Below, piece by piece: positions 34,410 through 40,822 of a stretch of DNA of 64,000 bases. Both the position numbers and the translations under genes were made by a program. The notes beneath the pieces are model-generated. The model was not told the origin of the DNA and ran no database searches. It worked only from the letters and a program-made list of their open reading frames with translations. Within the stretch, counting starts at the first letter, position 1; every line of letters begins with the position of its first letter. The DNA is taken from assembly GCF_026240635.1 (NCBI RefSeq), contig NZ_CP110848.1:1180501-1244500 (forward strand). The letters are read 5' to 3'. This stretch comes from Trichothermofontia sichuanensis B231 (lineage in GTDB: Bacteria; Cyanobacteriota; Cyanobacteriia; B231).

Positions 34410-34517
34410 TATCAGTCATGGCAATTTAGACTGAAACAGCCCCCTCACCACCAGCCCCTCTCCCAGAGCGGGAGGGGGGAGTGAAAAACTGTATCGTTCT
34501 TATTTGGATTGACCATA
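34410..34517 (+). repeat. Family A MITE-like element, copy A5
   Basis: It runs from TATCAGTCATGGCAATTTAG to GGATTGACCATA with the core hairpin CCTCTCCC-agagc-GGGAGGGG. It is nearly full length with small end changes. Confidence 0.85.
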
Positions 34518-34712
34518 ATGTCGTTCAAGGTTGAGTGCAGGCGTAGGGAATTCGGGGATAGGTAGGTGTGAGTCTTGAGTACTGAGGTCGGAGTCTCCCC
34601 CGCCTGCTGGGCAGTTCGACCAGACCTGAATGAGGAATTCCCGATTTTATTAAGCTTAGATAGGGGATTGGTATCCTACAATGCCCCTACAGCGGTTAGG
34701 AATCACTGCTCT

Positions 34713-36644
34713 ATGGGCTACTGTCTCAATCCTGACTGCCACCAACCCAACGCTCCGGATCAGGCCCGCTTTTGTAGTCATTGTGGTGCCCGTTTGCTGT
34801 TGGCCGATCGTTACCGGGCGGTAGCCCCGATTGGGCAAGGAGGATTTGGGCGCACCTTTCGGGCGGTGGATGAACATAAGCCCTCCCGTCCCCCCTGTGT
34901 CATCAAGCAGCTTTATCTCGAACATCCCACAGCCGCTGGTTTCCAGAAGGCGGTGCAGTTATTTGAGCAAGAAGCCCACCGTCTGGAACTGTTAGGTACC
35001 CATCCGCAAATTCCAGCCCTGCTTGCCTACTTTACCCAGGAAGGCCACTCCTATCTCATCCAAGAGTTTATCGCTGGCCAAACCCTGACCCAACGCCAAC
35101 AGCAGCAAGGCGTTTTCACCGAGCCTCAGGTGCGATCGCTTCTCCACAGCCTCCTACCGGTCTTGCAGTTTGTCCACGCCCACCAGGTTATTCACCGCGA
35201 TATCAAACCCGATAATATCATCTGGCGAGAAGTCGAGGGAACAGGGCCGTCAGGTTGGGGTAGCCTCTCTTCAAGCCCAGCGCGATCGCCCCGACCTGAT
35301 CTAGTCCTCGTAGACTTTGGGGCGTCGGGCCTTGCCCGATCAACGCCGCGGACCGGCACCAAGATCTATAGCCTGGGTTACAGTGCACCGGAGCAAGAAA
35401 GCGGCAAAGCCTGTTTTGCCAGCGATTTGTATAGTTTAGGTGTTACCTGCATCACCCTACTGACAGGCTGCACCAATCCCCTCGACCTTTACTCCTACAG
35501 TGACGCTACCTGGATCTGGCAGGAGGCTCTCCAGGGGAATCCCGTGAGTGATCGCCTAGCCCACCTGCTGAATCGCCTAATTGCCAAACCCATTAACCAG
35601 CGGTATCCCACCGTTGAGGCCGTGTTACAGGATCTGGTCCATCCGGCAGTGGCCCTCAGCCTCTCCCAGGCTAACTCTAGGGCAAAATCGCCGTCAACCG
35701 CCTCCCTAACTGTTCCCCACAGGGGCAGACATCCTAACCGTATCGGGGGGCAACCGCACAGCGGGGGGCAATCGCACGGGGCTTACCCCCCAGCGGCCTC
35801 ACCAAACGGTGTCCAACCCCAGGTGGGGACCTACCAATGGCTCGAGTGTTCACAGTTTGAAGTTGTCACCGTTGATCACCAGGGCCAGATCGTCGATCGG
35901 CGGCAACACCAGGCCCGCTACTTCCGCGAACCCCTGGCCGCAGGAGTTGATCTAGAGATGGTCGAAATTCCGGGCGGGCGTTTTCTGATGGGGGCGACTG
36001 TCACCACGAGCAGTGAGAACGCCGCCTTACCCCGCCATTGGGTAACGGTGCCGTCCTTTTTCATGGGGCGTTTCCCCATCACCCAGGCCCAGTGGAAAGC
36101 CCTTATGCCTAACAATCCCGCCTGGTTTCGGCAGGCGGATCATCCTGTGGAGGAGGTGTCATGGTGGGAAGCGGTGGAATTTTGCCAGCGCTTATCGGCC
36201 AAAACTGGACGGCTGTATCGCTTACCCAGTGAAGCCGAGTGGGAATATGCCTGTCGAGCGGGGACAACTACCCCCTTCCACTTTGGCGAGCAGATCACCA
36301 CGAAATTGGCCAATTGCTGTGGAGCCTTTAGTTACGATCCGGAACTGCGCGGGCAATGCTGTACCCAAACGACGCCCGTCGGCAGCTATCCCCCCAACGC
36401 CTTTGGTTTGTATGACATGCACGGCAACGTCAGCGAGTGGTGTCAGGATACGTGGCATCCCAGTTATGAGGGGGCACCCACCCAGGGAGAAGCGTGGATA
36501 GACAAGAGTGTAGAGCATCCCTATCGGGTCCTGCGGGGGGGCGCCTGGAATGCCTACGCCCGTCAGTGTCGATCGAGCAGTCGAAATCGCAATATCGAAA
36601 CCTTTCGCGGTAACTTCGTTGGCTTTCGGGTTGTCTGTTCTTAA
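34713..36644 (+). CDS. Zinc ribbon / Ser-Thr kinase / FGE-sulfatase domain fusion
   Basis: The 643-residue protein has three parts. Residues 1-27 form a zinc ribbon (CLNPDC...FCSHCG). Residues about 33-310 form a Hanks-type kinase: glycine loop IGQGGFG, VIKQ lysine, catalytic HRDIKPDN, metal-binding DFGAS and YSAPEQ. A Pro/Ser/Gln-rich linker follows, then a formylglycine-generating-enzyme-like domain (about 450-643: EIPGGRFLMGA, LPSEAEWEYACRAGTTTPF, GNVSEWCQDTW, YRVLRGGAWNAY). This last domain has a single Cys (RQCRSSSRNR) where true FGE has two catalytic cysteines, so it is probably a binding module as in Pkn1-like kinases. ATG 34713 starts directly at the zinc ribbon; upstream codons have no homology. 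Confidence 0.9.
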   Translation: MGYCLNPDCHQPNAPDQARFCSHCGARLLLADRYRAVAPIGQGGFGRTFRAVDEHKPSRPPCVIKQLYLEHPTAAGFQKAVQLFEQEAHRLELLGTHPQIPALLAYFTQEGHSYLIQEFIAGQTLTQRQQQQGVFTEPQVRSLLHSLLPVLQFVHAHQVIHRDIKPDNIIWREVEGTGPSGWGSLSSSPARSPRPDLVLVDFGASGLARSTPRTGTKIYSLGYSAPEQESGKACFASDLYSLGVTCITLLTGCTNPLDLYSYSDATWIWQEALQGNPVSDRLAHLLNRLIAKPINQRYPTVEAVLQDLVHPAVALSLSQANSRAKSPSTASLTVPHRGRHPNRIGGQPHSGGQSHGAYPPAASPNGVQPQVGTYQWLECSQFEVVTVDHQGQIVDRRQHQARYFREPLAAGVDLEMVEIPGGRFLMGATVTTSSENAALPRHWVTVPSFFMGRFPITQAQWKALMPNNPAWFRQADHPVEEVSWWEAVEFCQRLSAKTGRLYRLPSEAEWEYACRAGTTTPFHFGEQITTKLANCCGAFSYDPELRGQCCTQTTPVGSYPPNAFGLYDMHGNVSEWCQDTWHPSYEGAPTQGEAWIDKSVEHPYRVLRGGAWNAYARQCRSSSRNRNIETFRGNFVGFRVVCS

Positions 36645-36763: not shown

Positions 36764-36860
36764 TATAGTCATTCCAATTTAGACTGAAACATTACCCTCA
36801 CCCCCAGCCTCTCTCCCGCTCTGGGAGAGAGGAGTGAAGAACTGTATCGTTCTTATTTGG
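36764..36860 (+). repeat. Family A element, copy A6, right end lost
   Basis: It begins TATAGTCATTCCAATTTAGA and retains the hairpin CTCTCTCCC-gctct-GGGAGAGAG, but stops at TTCTTATTTGG, where AT-rich sequence of a different origin begins. The terminal ATTGACCATA is missing. Confidence 0.85.
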
Positions 36861-37458
36861 TAGGAATAATATTAAAGCAGAAATTTTATTAACAAAATAT
36901 ATAGAGCTAACATAAAGAAAAGCTGGTAGCCAAAACAAATTCTGGTAAGCACTATTGCCTAATAGATAAAATGGTACTGATAATAATATCGCACCGGGTA
37001 ACGGCGTGATCTTGCCACCAATCGGAGTCTCTTCATAGTAAGGATATTGTCCCTGTAAAAGTTTATCTACAGCAATATTAAGCGCTTCATCACGATCACT
37101 TCCTTGACTTAAAATTCCTTGTGTTTCCAATGGATAAACTACTGAGAATATTACTACTAATCCTAAAAATGTGAGTCCGACTAAAATTGGATACCATTTT
37201 GGGATAAACTGAAACAAGAAATCCTTAAATTTAAGGATCAACAGTAGTAATGAAGCAACAATGATCACATGAGTCACAATCCCTAGCAAGTCAAAATACT
37301 CTTGAATTAATGCCGCTGATGGAAAACATAAAAAGATAAAAAGATCACTATAAAAATTAATGATAATATCGTAGTTATCTGATGATTTTCTTGATCAAAC
37401 AGATTAGCTAGATGCGGCAAATTAGTAGGCTTAAAATTAAACATATAGGCGCTGCCAT
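36861..37458 (-). pseudogene. Remnant of a multi-pass membrane protein (GT39/mannosyltransferase-like)
   Basis: On the minus strand, codons from about 37458 read YMFNFKPTNLPHLANLFDQE... through a hydrophobic helix to SFYVF and then hit a stop. Losing one T in the run complementary to 37323-37326 explains this: the adjacent frame continues FPSAALIQEYFDLLGIVTHV through several helices to NKISALILF. The reading frame then runs into repeat A6, which adds the tail NKNDTVLHSSLPERERGWG and a stop at 36798. The sequence SQGSDRDEALNIAVDKLLQGQYPYYE resembles periplasmic loops of GT-C glycosyltransferases. AT-rich composition differs from its neighbours, suggesting transfer. It is not functional as it stands. 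Confidence 0.75.
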
Positions 37459-37462
37459 AAAC

Positions 37463-37612
37463 AACAAGGTTCCACAAGCAAGCGGTATAGCTACTCTGAA
37501 GCCCATGCTATCATCAAGCGGGGGCTTAGGACACCTCGTCCCTATAGAAGCTAAATGCAGGTCTCACCCCCAGGTCTCACCCTAATCATCACAAGGGGAA
37601 GTTGCCCCTGCT
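37463..37612 (-). pseudogene. Degenerate fragment resembling the wecG-type gene at 40034-40822
   Basis: The + strand text here (AAGCAAGCGGTATAGC, CCCATGCTATCATC, GGACACCTCG, GAAGCTAAATGCAG, TCATCAC, GGGGAAGTTGC) aligns step by step with 40131-40270 inside the C-terminal part of the WecG/TagA gene (GCAAGCGGTATAGCC, CCCATGCCATCATC, GGACACCTCG, GAAGCTAAACGCAG). Substitutions, small indels and a local duplication of CAGGTCTCACCC destroy the frame. It is either a decayed partial duplication or the remnant of a paralogous gene. It directly abuts the membrane-protein pseudogene. Confidence 0.8.
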
Positions 37613-37762: not shown

Positions 37763-40015
37763 ATGTATCGGTTTCATGTCCGCGCCTTTACCCAGCCTGG
37801 TGAGACGATTGCTCTAGTCGGATCGCTGCCGATTGTGGGTCAATGGGATCCAAGGCAATGCATTCGGCTCCAAACCAGCCCCGATCGCTATCCCCTCTGG
37901 TGGGTTGATCTGGCTCTGGATGACTGCGGCGAGACCGACGCCACTGCCGCCTGCCGCCTGGAATATAAATACCTGCGGCTCGGTGTAGACGGGCGAATTA
38001 CCTGGGAAACTCTTGGGGTTAACCGTTGGGTGCCCTTGGAAGCATCCCCACTCCCCAGTGCGATCGTGGTGGAAGATGGTTGGTGGGATGTCCTGCCCTC
38101 GTCTCCCTATGGGTACTTTGCTGAACCGGTGGCTCCCCCGCCAGTTCCTCGCTGTCCGGAGAGCCTCAAGATTGTGGTCATTGGCAGTTCCGTCGCCCTC
38201 GGCTGTAGTGCCTGGTTGTTGCGCGGTTGGGCTTGGCATTTAGGGCAGGCGTTACAGAAACGCTATGGCCATCATCTGGTTAATGTGTCTGAGGTCGGGG
38301 CCAACGTCGGGACCACGATCGCGCGGTTTCCCCAAGTCGTGCGGCCCGAAGCGCCGGATCTGGTGATTATTGCCCTCTCTTTGGGCAATGAGGGCTTAGC
38401 TAGCAGTCCTCCCGCCCACTATCGCTCCATCCAACGACGCTTTGAAAATGGCCTTCAGCAACTCATCAAAATGACGCGGGAATGTGGGGCACAGCCGATC
38501 CTGGGTGGGGTTTATCCCAATGGGGACTATTCGCCCGGTCATTACGCAGTTCTGCGCGATACTCAACAACGGATCTTAAGCTGGGGTGTCCCAGTCTTAG
38601 ATTGGTTGGCTGCTGTAGATGATGGCCAAGGGCGATGGCAACCGGGCTTATCCTTTGATGCGGCCCATCCCAATACCACCGGGCATCGGCGTATGTATGA
38701 CGCGATCGACCTTTCCCTATTTGAACTGACCAAATCAGCGTTACGACATACTGTTATCCACCCGACGGAAGCAAGCCTGATTTATCAAGATGACTGGGGG
38801 TTTCAGGTCGGTCTGAATAAAGCTGAAAATAGCCTGCGAATGATTAACCCAACCAGCTACGACTATCTGATTGCGCCCAGTTGGCAGACACTACAAACTG
38901 CCATCCAATCGGCACAACTGGCAGCGGGCCTCTACCTGCTGGAGGCCCCGATCGCCGGTACCTCACCCTTTCTGCTAGTACAAGAGGATAGCCGGATTGG
39001 CACGACTGTGACGATTCCAGCAGCGACACACCTGACCTTTTATCCCGTCTTTCATTTCTTCACGCCCCAATGTGCCAAAATTCTCTTTTATGATGGGCAC
39101 CTAGGGATCTTGAAGATGAGCGATCGTCGCCTGTGCGTCATTAATACGTCAGATCACGCGTACAACCTCCAACCCATGTGGTCAGAAGTGCGATCTGCAT
39201 TGAAGGCGATGTCTCCCGGTGTCTATGAAGATCCCATCCAGCCGGACCACCCCTTCCGCACCTTGATGGTCGGGCCAGAGGGCTTAGAAAGTCGTGTGAA
39301 AGTTGCAGCTCAATCCGCCTTCTTTTTGGACTATCAATGCCCACTCACAGAGCGCAAGCGAGTGGCTATTTTGCCTTTAGGTGATCGGTGTGCAGTACGC
39401 ATGTTATTGTACAAACTGGAGTATGACGGTCCGGCCTTTCCTTTTGACCTGACACGCACAACAAATTTGGCCGATGTTGCCGATATTATTCAGAACGATT
39501 TCTACGATATGTGGAATCCCCACTACCTATCTTATAATCATGAAGCGCGGCGTATTTATCACACAAAGTGGTCAGGATTATCGTTTGCTCATGAAGTTGA
39601 AGACAGCGATGATCCTGTGAATAATATGTTCCCTGTCTATGAACGGATGCGGGTTCGTTACACAGCACGATCGCAACGATTTTTATATGCCCTCAAACAC
39701 TGTGATGAAGCCCTATTTGTACGCACGGGAATCTGCGATCGGGGAACAGTCATCGATCTAATGCATAAACTGGAAAATAAGTGTCAGGGTAAACCTTTTC
39801 GCCTATTGATCATTTCACCCCAGTCTTCGGACGAGTTTAGCCATCTGACTAATGTTTTGCATTACAACTACGAGTTTAACCCCGATCGGATGTACGAGGA
39901 CATCGGGTATTGGTTGCATTGCACCGGCGTGATGCGACATATCCTCCATTCTCTGGGTATTTCCAGTAAAAATCTCTTCTGGTGTCCCCCTTCTCCTGCT
40001 CAAGAGGTCAAATAA
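37763..40015 (+). CDS. CBM20 - SGNH hydrolase - DUF1796 three-domain protein
   Basis: The 750-residue protein appears to fuse three domains. Residues 1-105 form a CBM20 starch-binding domain (YRFHVRAFTQPGETIALVGS, VGQWDPRQCIRL, LEYKYLRLGVDGRITWE). Residues about 130-320 form an SGNH/GDSL esterase: block I VIGSSVALG, block III SLGNEG, block V DAAHPNTTGH with the catalytic-type Asp and His. A beta-rich middle follows (about 330-520). Residues about 530-740 resemble DUF1796, a putative papain-like fold (LPLGDRCAVRMLLYKL, AFPFDLTRT, YDMWNPHYLSYNHEA). No signal peptide or TM helix is seen, so it is apparently cytoplasmic. It may act on a glycan, for example deacylating glycogen-like or surface polysaccharide; this is inference. 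The neighbour is wecG, convergent 18 nt away. Confidence 0.85.
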   Translation: MYRFHVRAFTQPGETIALVGSLPIVGQWDPRQCIRLQTSPDRYPLWWVDLALDDCGETDATAACRLEYKYLRLGVDGRITWETLGVNRWVPLEASPLPSAIVVEDGWWDVLPSSPYGYFAEPVAPPPVPRCPESLKIVVIGSSVALGCSAWLLRGWAWHLGQALQKRYGHHLVNVSEVGANVGTTIARFPQVVRPEAPDLVIIALSLGNEGLASSPPAHYRSIQRRFENGLQQLIKMTRECGAQPILGGVYPNGDYSPGHYAVLRDTQQRILSWGVPVLDWLAAVDDGQGRWQPGLSFDAAHPNTTGHRRMYDAIDLSLFELTKSALRHTVIHPTEASLIYQDDWGFQVGLNKAENSLRMINPTSYDYLIAPSWQTLQTAIQSAQLAAGLYLLEAPIAGTSPFLLVQEDSRIGTTVTIPAATHLTFYPVFHFFTPQCAKILFYDGHLGILKMSDRRLCVINTSDHAYNLQPMWSEVRSALKAMSPGVYEDPIQPDHPFRTLMVGPEGLESRVKVAAQSAFFLDYQCPLTERKRVAILPLGDRCAVRMLLYKLEYDGPAFPFDLTRTTNLADVADIIQNDFYDMWNPHYLSYNHEARRIYHTKWSGLSFAHEVEDSDDPVNNMFPVYERMRVRYTARSQRFLYALKHCDEALFVRTGICDRGTVIDLMHKLENKCQGKPFRLLIISPQSSDEFSHLTNVLHYNYEFNPDRMYEDIGYWLHCTGVMRHILHSLGISSKNLFWCPPSPAQEVK

Positions 40016-40033: not shown

Positions 40034-40822
40034 TTAGTTTGAGCGCTTACCCATCAGCCAATATTGGAGCAATTGCCAACCCAGTAGCACCACAAATACG
40101 GGATTATTAATCAAGTAGCGCCGCCACAAACGACGAGGTTCCACCAGCAAGCGGTATAGCCATTCTAAACCCCATGCCATCATCCAGCGGGGGGCCTGGG
40201 ACACCTCGCCACTATGGAAGCTAAACGCAGCTCCCACTCCAATCATCACCAGGGGGAGTTGCTCCTGCTGTCGCGCCATCCATTGCTCCTGCTTGGGACA
40301 ACCCAATCCTACCAAGACCACCCTAGCCCCACTGGCCAAAATCCGCGCTGCATCCGCTGCTTCCTCCGCCGGGGTTAACGGGCGAAAGGGTGGGGCATAA
40401 CAGCCGACGATCGCCAACCCTGGAAATTGCCCTGTTAACTGATGACTTAACTTCTCCAACATCGTCGGTGTTCCCCCATACAGATAGAGCGGTACCCCCG
40501 ATCGCGCGGCCCGATCACACCAAGCTAACATCAAATCAGGTCCATACACCCTGACCGCATCAACCACTCCCAGCAACCGTAATGCCCAAACCAGTGGCAT
40601 ACCATCAGGGGTCACTAGGGCTGCTTGATTCACGATCTGCTGGAAAGCAGGTTGCCAATAAGCCGTCATCACCACATGTACGTTGGCCGCAATCACATAA
40701 CGGGATTGACGCGCCTCAGCCCATCGCTGAATCAGATCGCAGGCCGCATCATAATTCGTAGCATCGACCCGACTGCCCAGAATGAATCTAAATCTGGAAC
40801 CGCAGCCAGCCTCATCCGCCAT
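40034..40822 (-). CDS. WecG/TagA/CpsF family glycosyltransferase (GT26)
   Basis: The 262-residue enzyme transfers a sugar (N-acetylmannosamine, its acid or a related residue) from a nucleotide donor to an undecaprenyl-linked acceptor at the inner face of the membrane. Family motifs are the N-terminal GSRVDATNYDAACDLI, the catalytic-region VTPDGMPLVWALRLLG, PLYLYGGTP, VGLGCPKQEQWMARQQEQLPLVMIGVGAAFSFHSG and the C-terminal membrane-associating appendage WGLEWLYRLLVEPRRLWRRYL. ATG 40822 is chosen over a TTG six bases upstream. A degenerate relative of its 3' part lies at 37463-37612. Together with the wza/wzc block it points to surface-polysaccharide synthesis. Confidence 0.93.
   Translation of the reverse strand: MADEAGCGSRFRFILGSRVDATNYDAACDLIQRWAEARQSRYVIAANVHVVMTAYWQPAFQQIVNQAALVTPDGMPLVWALRLLGVVDAVRVYGPDLMLAWCDRAARSGVPLYLYGGTPTMLEKLSHQLTGQFPGLAIVGCYAPPFRPLTPAEEAADAARILASGARVVLVGLGCPKQEQWMARQQEQLPLVMIGVGAAFSFHSGEVSQAPRWMMAWGLEWLYRLLVEPRRLWRRYLINNPVFVVLLGWQLLQYWLMGKRSN

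Follow-up and report, generated by a model that had tools for sequence, protein, structure and literature searches.

A conserved cyanobacterial fusion of CBM20, SGNH hydrolase and DUF1796 domains, co-inherited with an acyl-CoA synthetase, as a candidate acyl-ester enzyme of alpha-glucans

What might a single protein do that joins a starch-binding module to an esterase-type hydrolase and to a domain carrying a peptidase name? The question is raised by an uninterrupted 750-codon frame, running from ATG to TAA at positions 37763-40015 of the forward strand, in a 64,000-nucleotide stretch of the Trichothermofontia sichuanensis B231 genome (hereafter, the window). A first-pass annotation had described this gene as a cytoplasmic three-domain fusion of CBM20, SGNH and DUF1796 that may edit glycans or process glycan-linked proteins, next to wecG. 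In the open-access literature we found no relevant paper on DUF1796, CBM20+SGNH or CBM20+GDSL in cyanobacteria, and no paper that names the CBM20 + SGNH + DUF1796 architecture. Here, we examined the modules of the encoded protein, their conservation and their genomic company, and weighed what these suggest about its function.

Results

Modules of the fusion protein

The frame encodes a complete protein of 750 aa, in which the three proposed domains are matched separately, each above its curated Pfam cut-off (hmmscan), and occur in the same order in homologues. CBM20 (PF00686) covers aa 3-93 (37769-38041, +), with an E-value of 1e-13 and 51 bits against a cut-off of 23.3. When aligned with 1ac0 and 2vn4, its residues W46, K69, W81 and N87 fall on the binding-site-1 residues of the Aspergillus niger glucoamylase, the positions aligned with W46 and W81 being W543 and W590. 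Across 100 aligned fusion homologues, W28, W46, W81, E82 and R88 are present in every sequence and K69 in 89. CBM20 domains can also bind other glycans, and they can play a regulatory role.

The SGNH/GDSL hydrolase domain (PF13472, Lipase_GDSL_2; aa 139-310; E 1.7e-15) lies at 38177-38692 (+) and retains S143 within GSS (block I thus reading GSS, not GDS), G179, N209 within GNE, and D299-x-x-H302. All of these are found in 100 of the 100 aligned fusions save D299, which is found in 99; the codon of the putative nucleophile, Ser143, occupies 38189-38191 (+). Foldseek matched this domain to 4rsh (1.4e-8, TMt 0.79), to the acetylxylan esterase Axe2 and to TesA, the E. coli-type acyl-CoA thioesterase I. 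PDB sequence matches likewise link the middle of the protein to TesA, and its N-terminus to glucoamylase and CGTase.

The DUF1796 domain (PF08795; aa 536-684; E 9.5e-8, 32.5 bits against a cut-off of 23), together with a C-terminal extension conserved to aa 743, corresponds to 39368-39991 (+). C543, D562, H610 and R636 are invariant among the 100 fusions, and in an alignment of 44 sequences that includes stand-alone DUF1796 proteins G540, C543, F561, D562, F580 and R636 are invariant and H610 nearly so. The codon of Cys543, the putative nucleophile, is found at 39389-39391 (+). The expectation of intact, conserved catalytic motifs therefore holds for both the SGNH and the DUF1796 domain. A comparison by hhalign of DUF1796 as a diverged SGNH domain was negative.

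Between the last two domains, residues ~335-530 form a tandem duplicate of one ~95-aa module (hhalign probability 98%, E 8e-14), with the first copy, R1, at aa ~335-430 (38765-39052, +) and the second, R2, at aa ~434-530 (39062-39352, +). Neither copy has a Pfam match, and PDB sequence profile searches with R1R2 or with R1R2-DUF1796 returned nothing credible. The predicted structure of residues 322-750 (pLDDT 92.5, pTM 0.87) was matched by Foldseek mostly to GH13 enzymes, namely CGTase, amylosucrase, alpha-amylase and maltooligosyl trehalose synthase, at E-values of 0.004-0.07 and probabilities mostly of 0.97-1.0, in an output that does not display the aligned query region. Because domain C is what these enzymes have in common besides the barrel, R1/R2 are possibly domain-C-like and are probably the origin of these matches. 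The resemblance is suggestive only: profiles of cyanobacterial GH13 domain C aligned with R1/R2 at a non-significant P of 0.11-0.15 (hhalign), and we did not adopt the assignment. R1 as a diverged CBM20 was likewise rejected by hhalign. Judged from its sequence, the protein consists of five modules, CBM20, SGNH, R1, R2 and DUF1796.

Most homologues keep the start methionine, within the N-terminal MYRF, and with CBM20 starting as early as residue 3 there is no space for a signal peptide. The protein is accordingly predicted to be cytoplasmic, as was first supposed.

Conservation across cyanobacteria

Among 96 relatives, the fusion is full length in 19 other genomes, at 54-62% identity, and present as fragments in two more. 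A scan of species genomes, from which the best 80 of 142 confirmed relatives were kept, yielded 80 named loci, including those of Nostoc, Anabaena, Oscillatoria, Microcoleus and Pseudanabaena, all encoding the full-length protein with the same domain order. In a class-wide survey of one genome per species, 69 of the 390 genomes and 33 of the 155 genera carry the fusion, nearly always as a whole protein. The same order and full length across relatives argue that the architecture is neither a product of chance nor a local gene fusion, and since all of the motifs are kept across many cyanobacterial families, the protein must have a selected function.

Genes split into separate polypeptides were not used as Rosetta-stone proof: those of G219 and G404 resemble frameshifts, and the only plausible true split, in G038, separates SGNH from R2 in a version that lacks R1. 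A full-length fusion on a long branch also occurs on a contig labelled Chloroflexota (L105, Chloroflexaceae MAG SM1_2_4), which is possibly misbinned. A plasmid search found SGNH relatives but not the fusion; among the nearest of them is a Bacteroides SGNH protein flanked by GH30 and GH3 genes.

Where inspected, CBM20 proteins other than the fusion are, in these genomes, GH13 amylases of ~650 aa with a C-terminal CBM20. The host genome's own second copy (L145:3-1322, +; G000:C1 near 2291928) is, according to Pfam, of the same kind, and is a candidate for acting on the same glucan as the fusion.

Neighbourhood in the window

In the window, wecG lies 18 bp from the fusion gene. No wecG-like ORF was found in the flanks of 99 homologous fusion loci, so that the anticipated conserved wecG-type neighbour turned out to be private to this genome, and we do not regard wecG, seen next to the fusion in the window only, as its functional neighbour. 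Upstream, at 37449-37612, a broken and decayed partial copy of wecG in the same orientation repeats 40118-40269 (82-86% identical piecewise); the fusion gene is thus bracketed by wecG sequence, a layout reminiscent of a duplication or insertion. This copy accounts for one of the two glycosyltransferase-type remnants previously noted, and the other is a 163-aa ORF (36798-37289) with no Pfam match. Further upstream, a gene at 34575-36644 encodes a 4-Cys prefix, a Ser/Thr kinase and a formylglycine-generating-enzyme-like domain, and is flanked on both sides by a 94-nt direct repeat (34414-34507 and 36767-36860, 84% identical). No recurrent glycosyltransferase cluster was seen around the fusion in homologous loci.

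A co-inherited acyl-CoA synthetase

Clustering of the neighbours revealed an AMP-binding acyl-CoA synthetase (hereafter, the ligase) in 53 of 80 fusion loci, with the next real neighbours present in 15 or fewer; heme oxygenase, a HemN-like radical SAM protein, CorA and kinases recur in few loci. Of the 61 loci whose downstream flank spans at least 8 kb, 44 have the ligase starting within 7 kb. In the PDB it is best matched by malonyl-CoA synthetases (MatB), and its best NCBIfam model is malonyl-CoA synthase, with 361 bits, below the cut-off of 558; it also resembles ACSF3. By sequence, the partner is a MatB/ACSF3-like acyl-CoA synthetase, a family that does not fix the substrate.

As the ligase had been chosen among many neighbours, its genome-wide co-occurrence with the fusion provided a separate, later test, which holds also at megabase distances. 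Orthologues, set apart by a gap with no match scoring between 1e-100 and 1e-195, occur in 28 of the 390 genomes, all 28 of which carry the fusion, and in none of the 321 fusion-free genomes (Fisher P of 4e-24 when genomes are counted and of 7e-19 when genera are, both inflated by shared ancestry). Within one family of 156 genomes, the ligase accompanies 38 of 38 intact fusions, and is found in none of three genomes with only a remnant and in 3 of 115 fusion-free genomes. The exceptions to co-occurrence, G560, G586 and G603, belong to one genus and have a divergent (67-70%) copy of the ligase without the fusion. On the fusion tree, approximately three changes suffice to explain ligase presence.

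The arrangement of the two genes varies: the ligase may lie in tandem 26 bp downstream of the fusion (G322), in tandem 146 bp upstream (G219), divergently at 238 bp (G404), convergently at 1.4-2.4 kb, or 0.5-2.5 Mb away. The fusion and this particular synthetase have been gained and lost together in many lineages, and their retention through rearrangement combined with joint loss argues for a functional tie. No orthologue of the ligase was found in the window's own genome, and another 40 fusion-positive genomes of the 390 are also without it, which indicates that the ligase is not obligatory and that the fusion studied here works with another acyl source or alone. Given that the ligase almost never occurs without the fusion, whereas the fusion often occurs without the ligase, it is the ligase that depends on the fusion, and this one-sided dependence fits salvage or donor supply.

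DUF1796 outside the fusion

Within the Cyanobacteriia sampled, DUF1796 is confined to this fusion or to broken copies thereof, in frames of ~740-780 aa with the exception of one 441-aa frame of a broken copy. In the sister class, it forms stand-alone proteins of ~250 aa, whose genes adjoin those for GT2, GT8 and GT-D glycosyltransferases, a DegT aminotransferase and a nucleotidyltransferase, and the same class contains a 514-aa fusion of GT2 and DUF1796 (L110:1183-2724, -), another glycan-linked architecture. On a Priestia plasmid, DUF1796 is accompanied by, among others, wecB, epimerase and polysaccharide biosynthesis genes. The P. megaterium plasmids L185 and L186 carry DUF1796 genes at several matching places per plasmid, some of them near a sulfotransferase, an adenylyl-sulfate kinase and wecB. 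Among viruses, the structure matches are a 615-aa glycosyltransferase and proteins of giant viruses that bear the name papain-like cysteine peptidase, and no DUF1796 was found in annotated phages.

The view that DUF1796 lies near glycan genes elsewhere is thus supported by the sister-class and Priestia neighbours and the GT2 fusion, and in light of this evidence and of its predicted fold (see Discussion) the domain is better seen as one of glycan biosynthesis than as a peptidase.

Discussion

The domains, motifs, cytoplasmic location and glycan-editing theme put forward by the first-pass annotation stand, while conserved wecG-type neighbours and the processing of proteins by a peptidase are not supported, the peptidase being the weakest element of that reading; moreover, it overlooked the internal duplication and the synthetase inherited along with the fusion. 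From the observed domains, residues, architecture and co-occurrence we infer, as our leading though tentative interpretation, that the fusion acts in the cytoplasm on acyl esters of an alpha-glucan to which it docks, has two catalytic centres, and handles an acyl group that passes through an acyl-CoA. The N-terminal CBM20, probably together with the R1/R2 beta modules, would dock on glycogen or maltodextrin, as its binding residues suggest. The SGNH domain, with its Ser, Asp-His and oxyanion residues, would then cleave or transfer an acyl ester of the glucan. DUF1796 might serve as a second glycan-acting centre through Cys543, His610 and Asp562, in which case hydrolysis of, or transfer on, that same glycan would be a likelier activity than proteolysis. 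The ligase, associated with the fusion as described above, would be a metabolic partner that either supplies acyl-CoA as donor or turns the free acid left by the esterase back into its activated form. The carbohydrate-esterase relatives of the SGNH domain, the GH13 setting of the other CBM20 family and the glycan genes near DUF1796 elsewhere agree with this interpretation; against it speak the many fusion-positive genomes that lack the ligase, the ability of CBM20 domains to bind other glycans or to be regulatory, and the GSS in place of GDS in SGNH block I.

Alternatively, the fusion could be a surface-glycan enzyme whose cytoplasmic target is a polysaccharide intermediate, either lipid-linked or destined for export. 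CBM20 would then recognise a stretch of alpha-glucose in it, and DUF1796 would have the role that it has in other glycan clusters. The joining of DUF1796 to GT2, its sister-class position beside genes for GT2, GT8, GT-D, DegT and NTP-transferases, its place near wecB and epimerases in Priestia, and the wecG gene 18 bp away in the window are all consistent with such a role. However, the flanks of every other homologous locus examined are devoid of a wecG-like gene, and the recurrent associate of the fusion is an acyl-CoA synthetase rather than a glycosyltransferase cluster, and we therefore consider this explanation unlikely, albeit a serious contender.

An improbable alternative is that the fusion is a thioesterase or a regulator of acyl-CoA, in which the acyl-CoA product of the partner ligase is the substrate of a TesA-like SGNH domain and CBM20 does no more than anchor the protein on glycogen or sense that polymer. 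The existence of the ligase speaks for it, as does TesA, which ranks high among the matches of the SGNH domain by both sequence and fold, but carbohydrate esterases are also among the closest solved structures, a synthetase and a thioesterase by themselves would amount to a futile cycle, and DUF1796 and R1/R2 would be left unexplained. Finally, a glycogen-associated cysteine peptidase and esterase, whose papain-like DUF1796 processes proteins bound to glycogen particles, fits the Pfam and NCBI names and the strictly conserved Cys and His, but appears very improbable in view of the predicted alternating alpha/beta fold, which places Cys543 after the first strand and ahead of the first helix (in the model with pLDDT 92.5), of the 50 PDB matches listed for residues 322-750 (Foldseek), none of which is of the papain family, and of the glycosyltransferases that partner DUF1796 elsewhere.

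Returning to the glucan-docked acyl-ester enzyme, its co-inheritance with the ligase points to an as yet undescribed addition or removal of acyl groups on a storage glucan; a point against it is that acylated glycogen has, to our knowledge, not been reported from cyanobacteria. In its boldest form, which we consider distinctly unlikely, the proposal would be a dedicated, repeatedly lost two-gene pathway by which an alpha-glucan of the cytoplasm is reversibly acylated, perhaps malonylated, with DUF1796 modifying glycan rather than acting proteolytically. If true, such a pathway would add a layer of glycogen chemistry not previously described. The joint gain and loss of the two genes poses a testable question, namely whether the cyanobacterial storage glucan is acylated and, if so, whether the fusion writes or erases the mark. 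In addition, DUF1796, otherwise encountered in the sister class, on Priestia plasmids and in giant viruses under a peptidase label, gains a concrete glycan context.

Several known systems resemble parts of the fusion. CBM20-tethered enzymes such as glucoamylase and CGTase share its CBM20, the tryptophans of which align with those of the A. niger glucoamylase, and laforin, a glycogen-tethered non-hydrolase, likewise has CBM20 ahead of an enzyme that is not a glycosidase; unlike these, the fusion lacks a glycoside hydrolase or phosphatase domain, its catalytic part being of the esterase type. With the SGNH/GDSL carbohydrate esterases and TesA it has in common the fold, the catalytic blocks and the conserved Ser, Gly, Asn and Asp-His, but it differs from Axe2, 4rsh and TesA in being joined to CBM20 and DUF1796, in its predicted cytoplasmic location, and in GSS replacing GDS, and its identity to solved relatives is ~20%. 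The partner ligase belongs, as the MatB/ACSF3 malonyl-CoA synthetases do, to the AMP-binding family, with MatB as its closest PDB and NCBIfam match, but it scores under the malonyl-CoA synthase cut-off and is co-inherited with a glucan-binding esterase fusion. Stand-alone DUF1796 proteins share with the fusion the signature G-x-x-C ... P-F-D ... H ... R, and the giant-virus proteins match it in structure; whereas elsewhere the domain either stands alone at ~250 aa or is joined to GT2, the sampled Cyanobacteriia have it only within the CBM20-SGNH fusion or broken copies of this.
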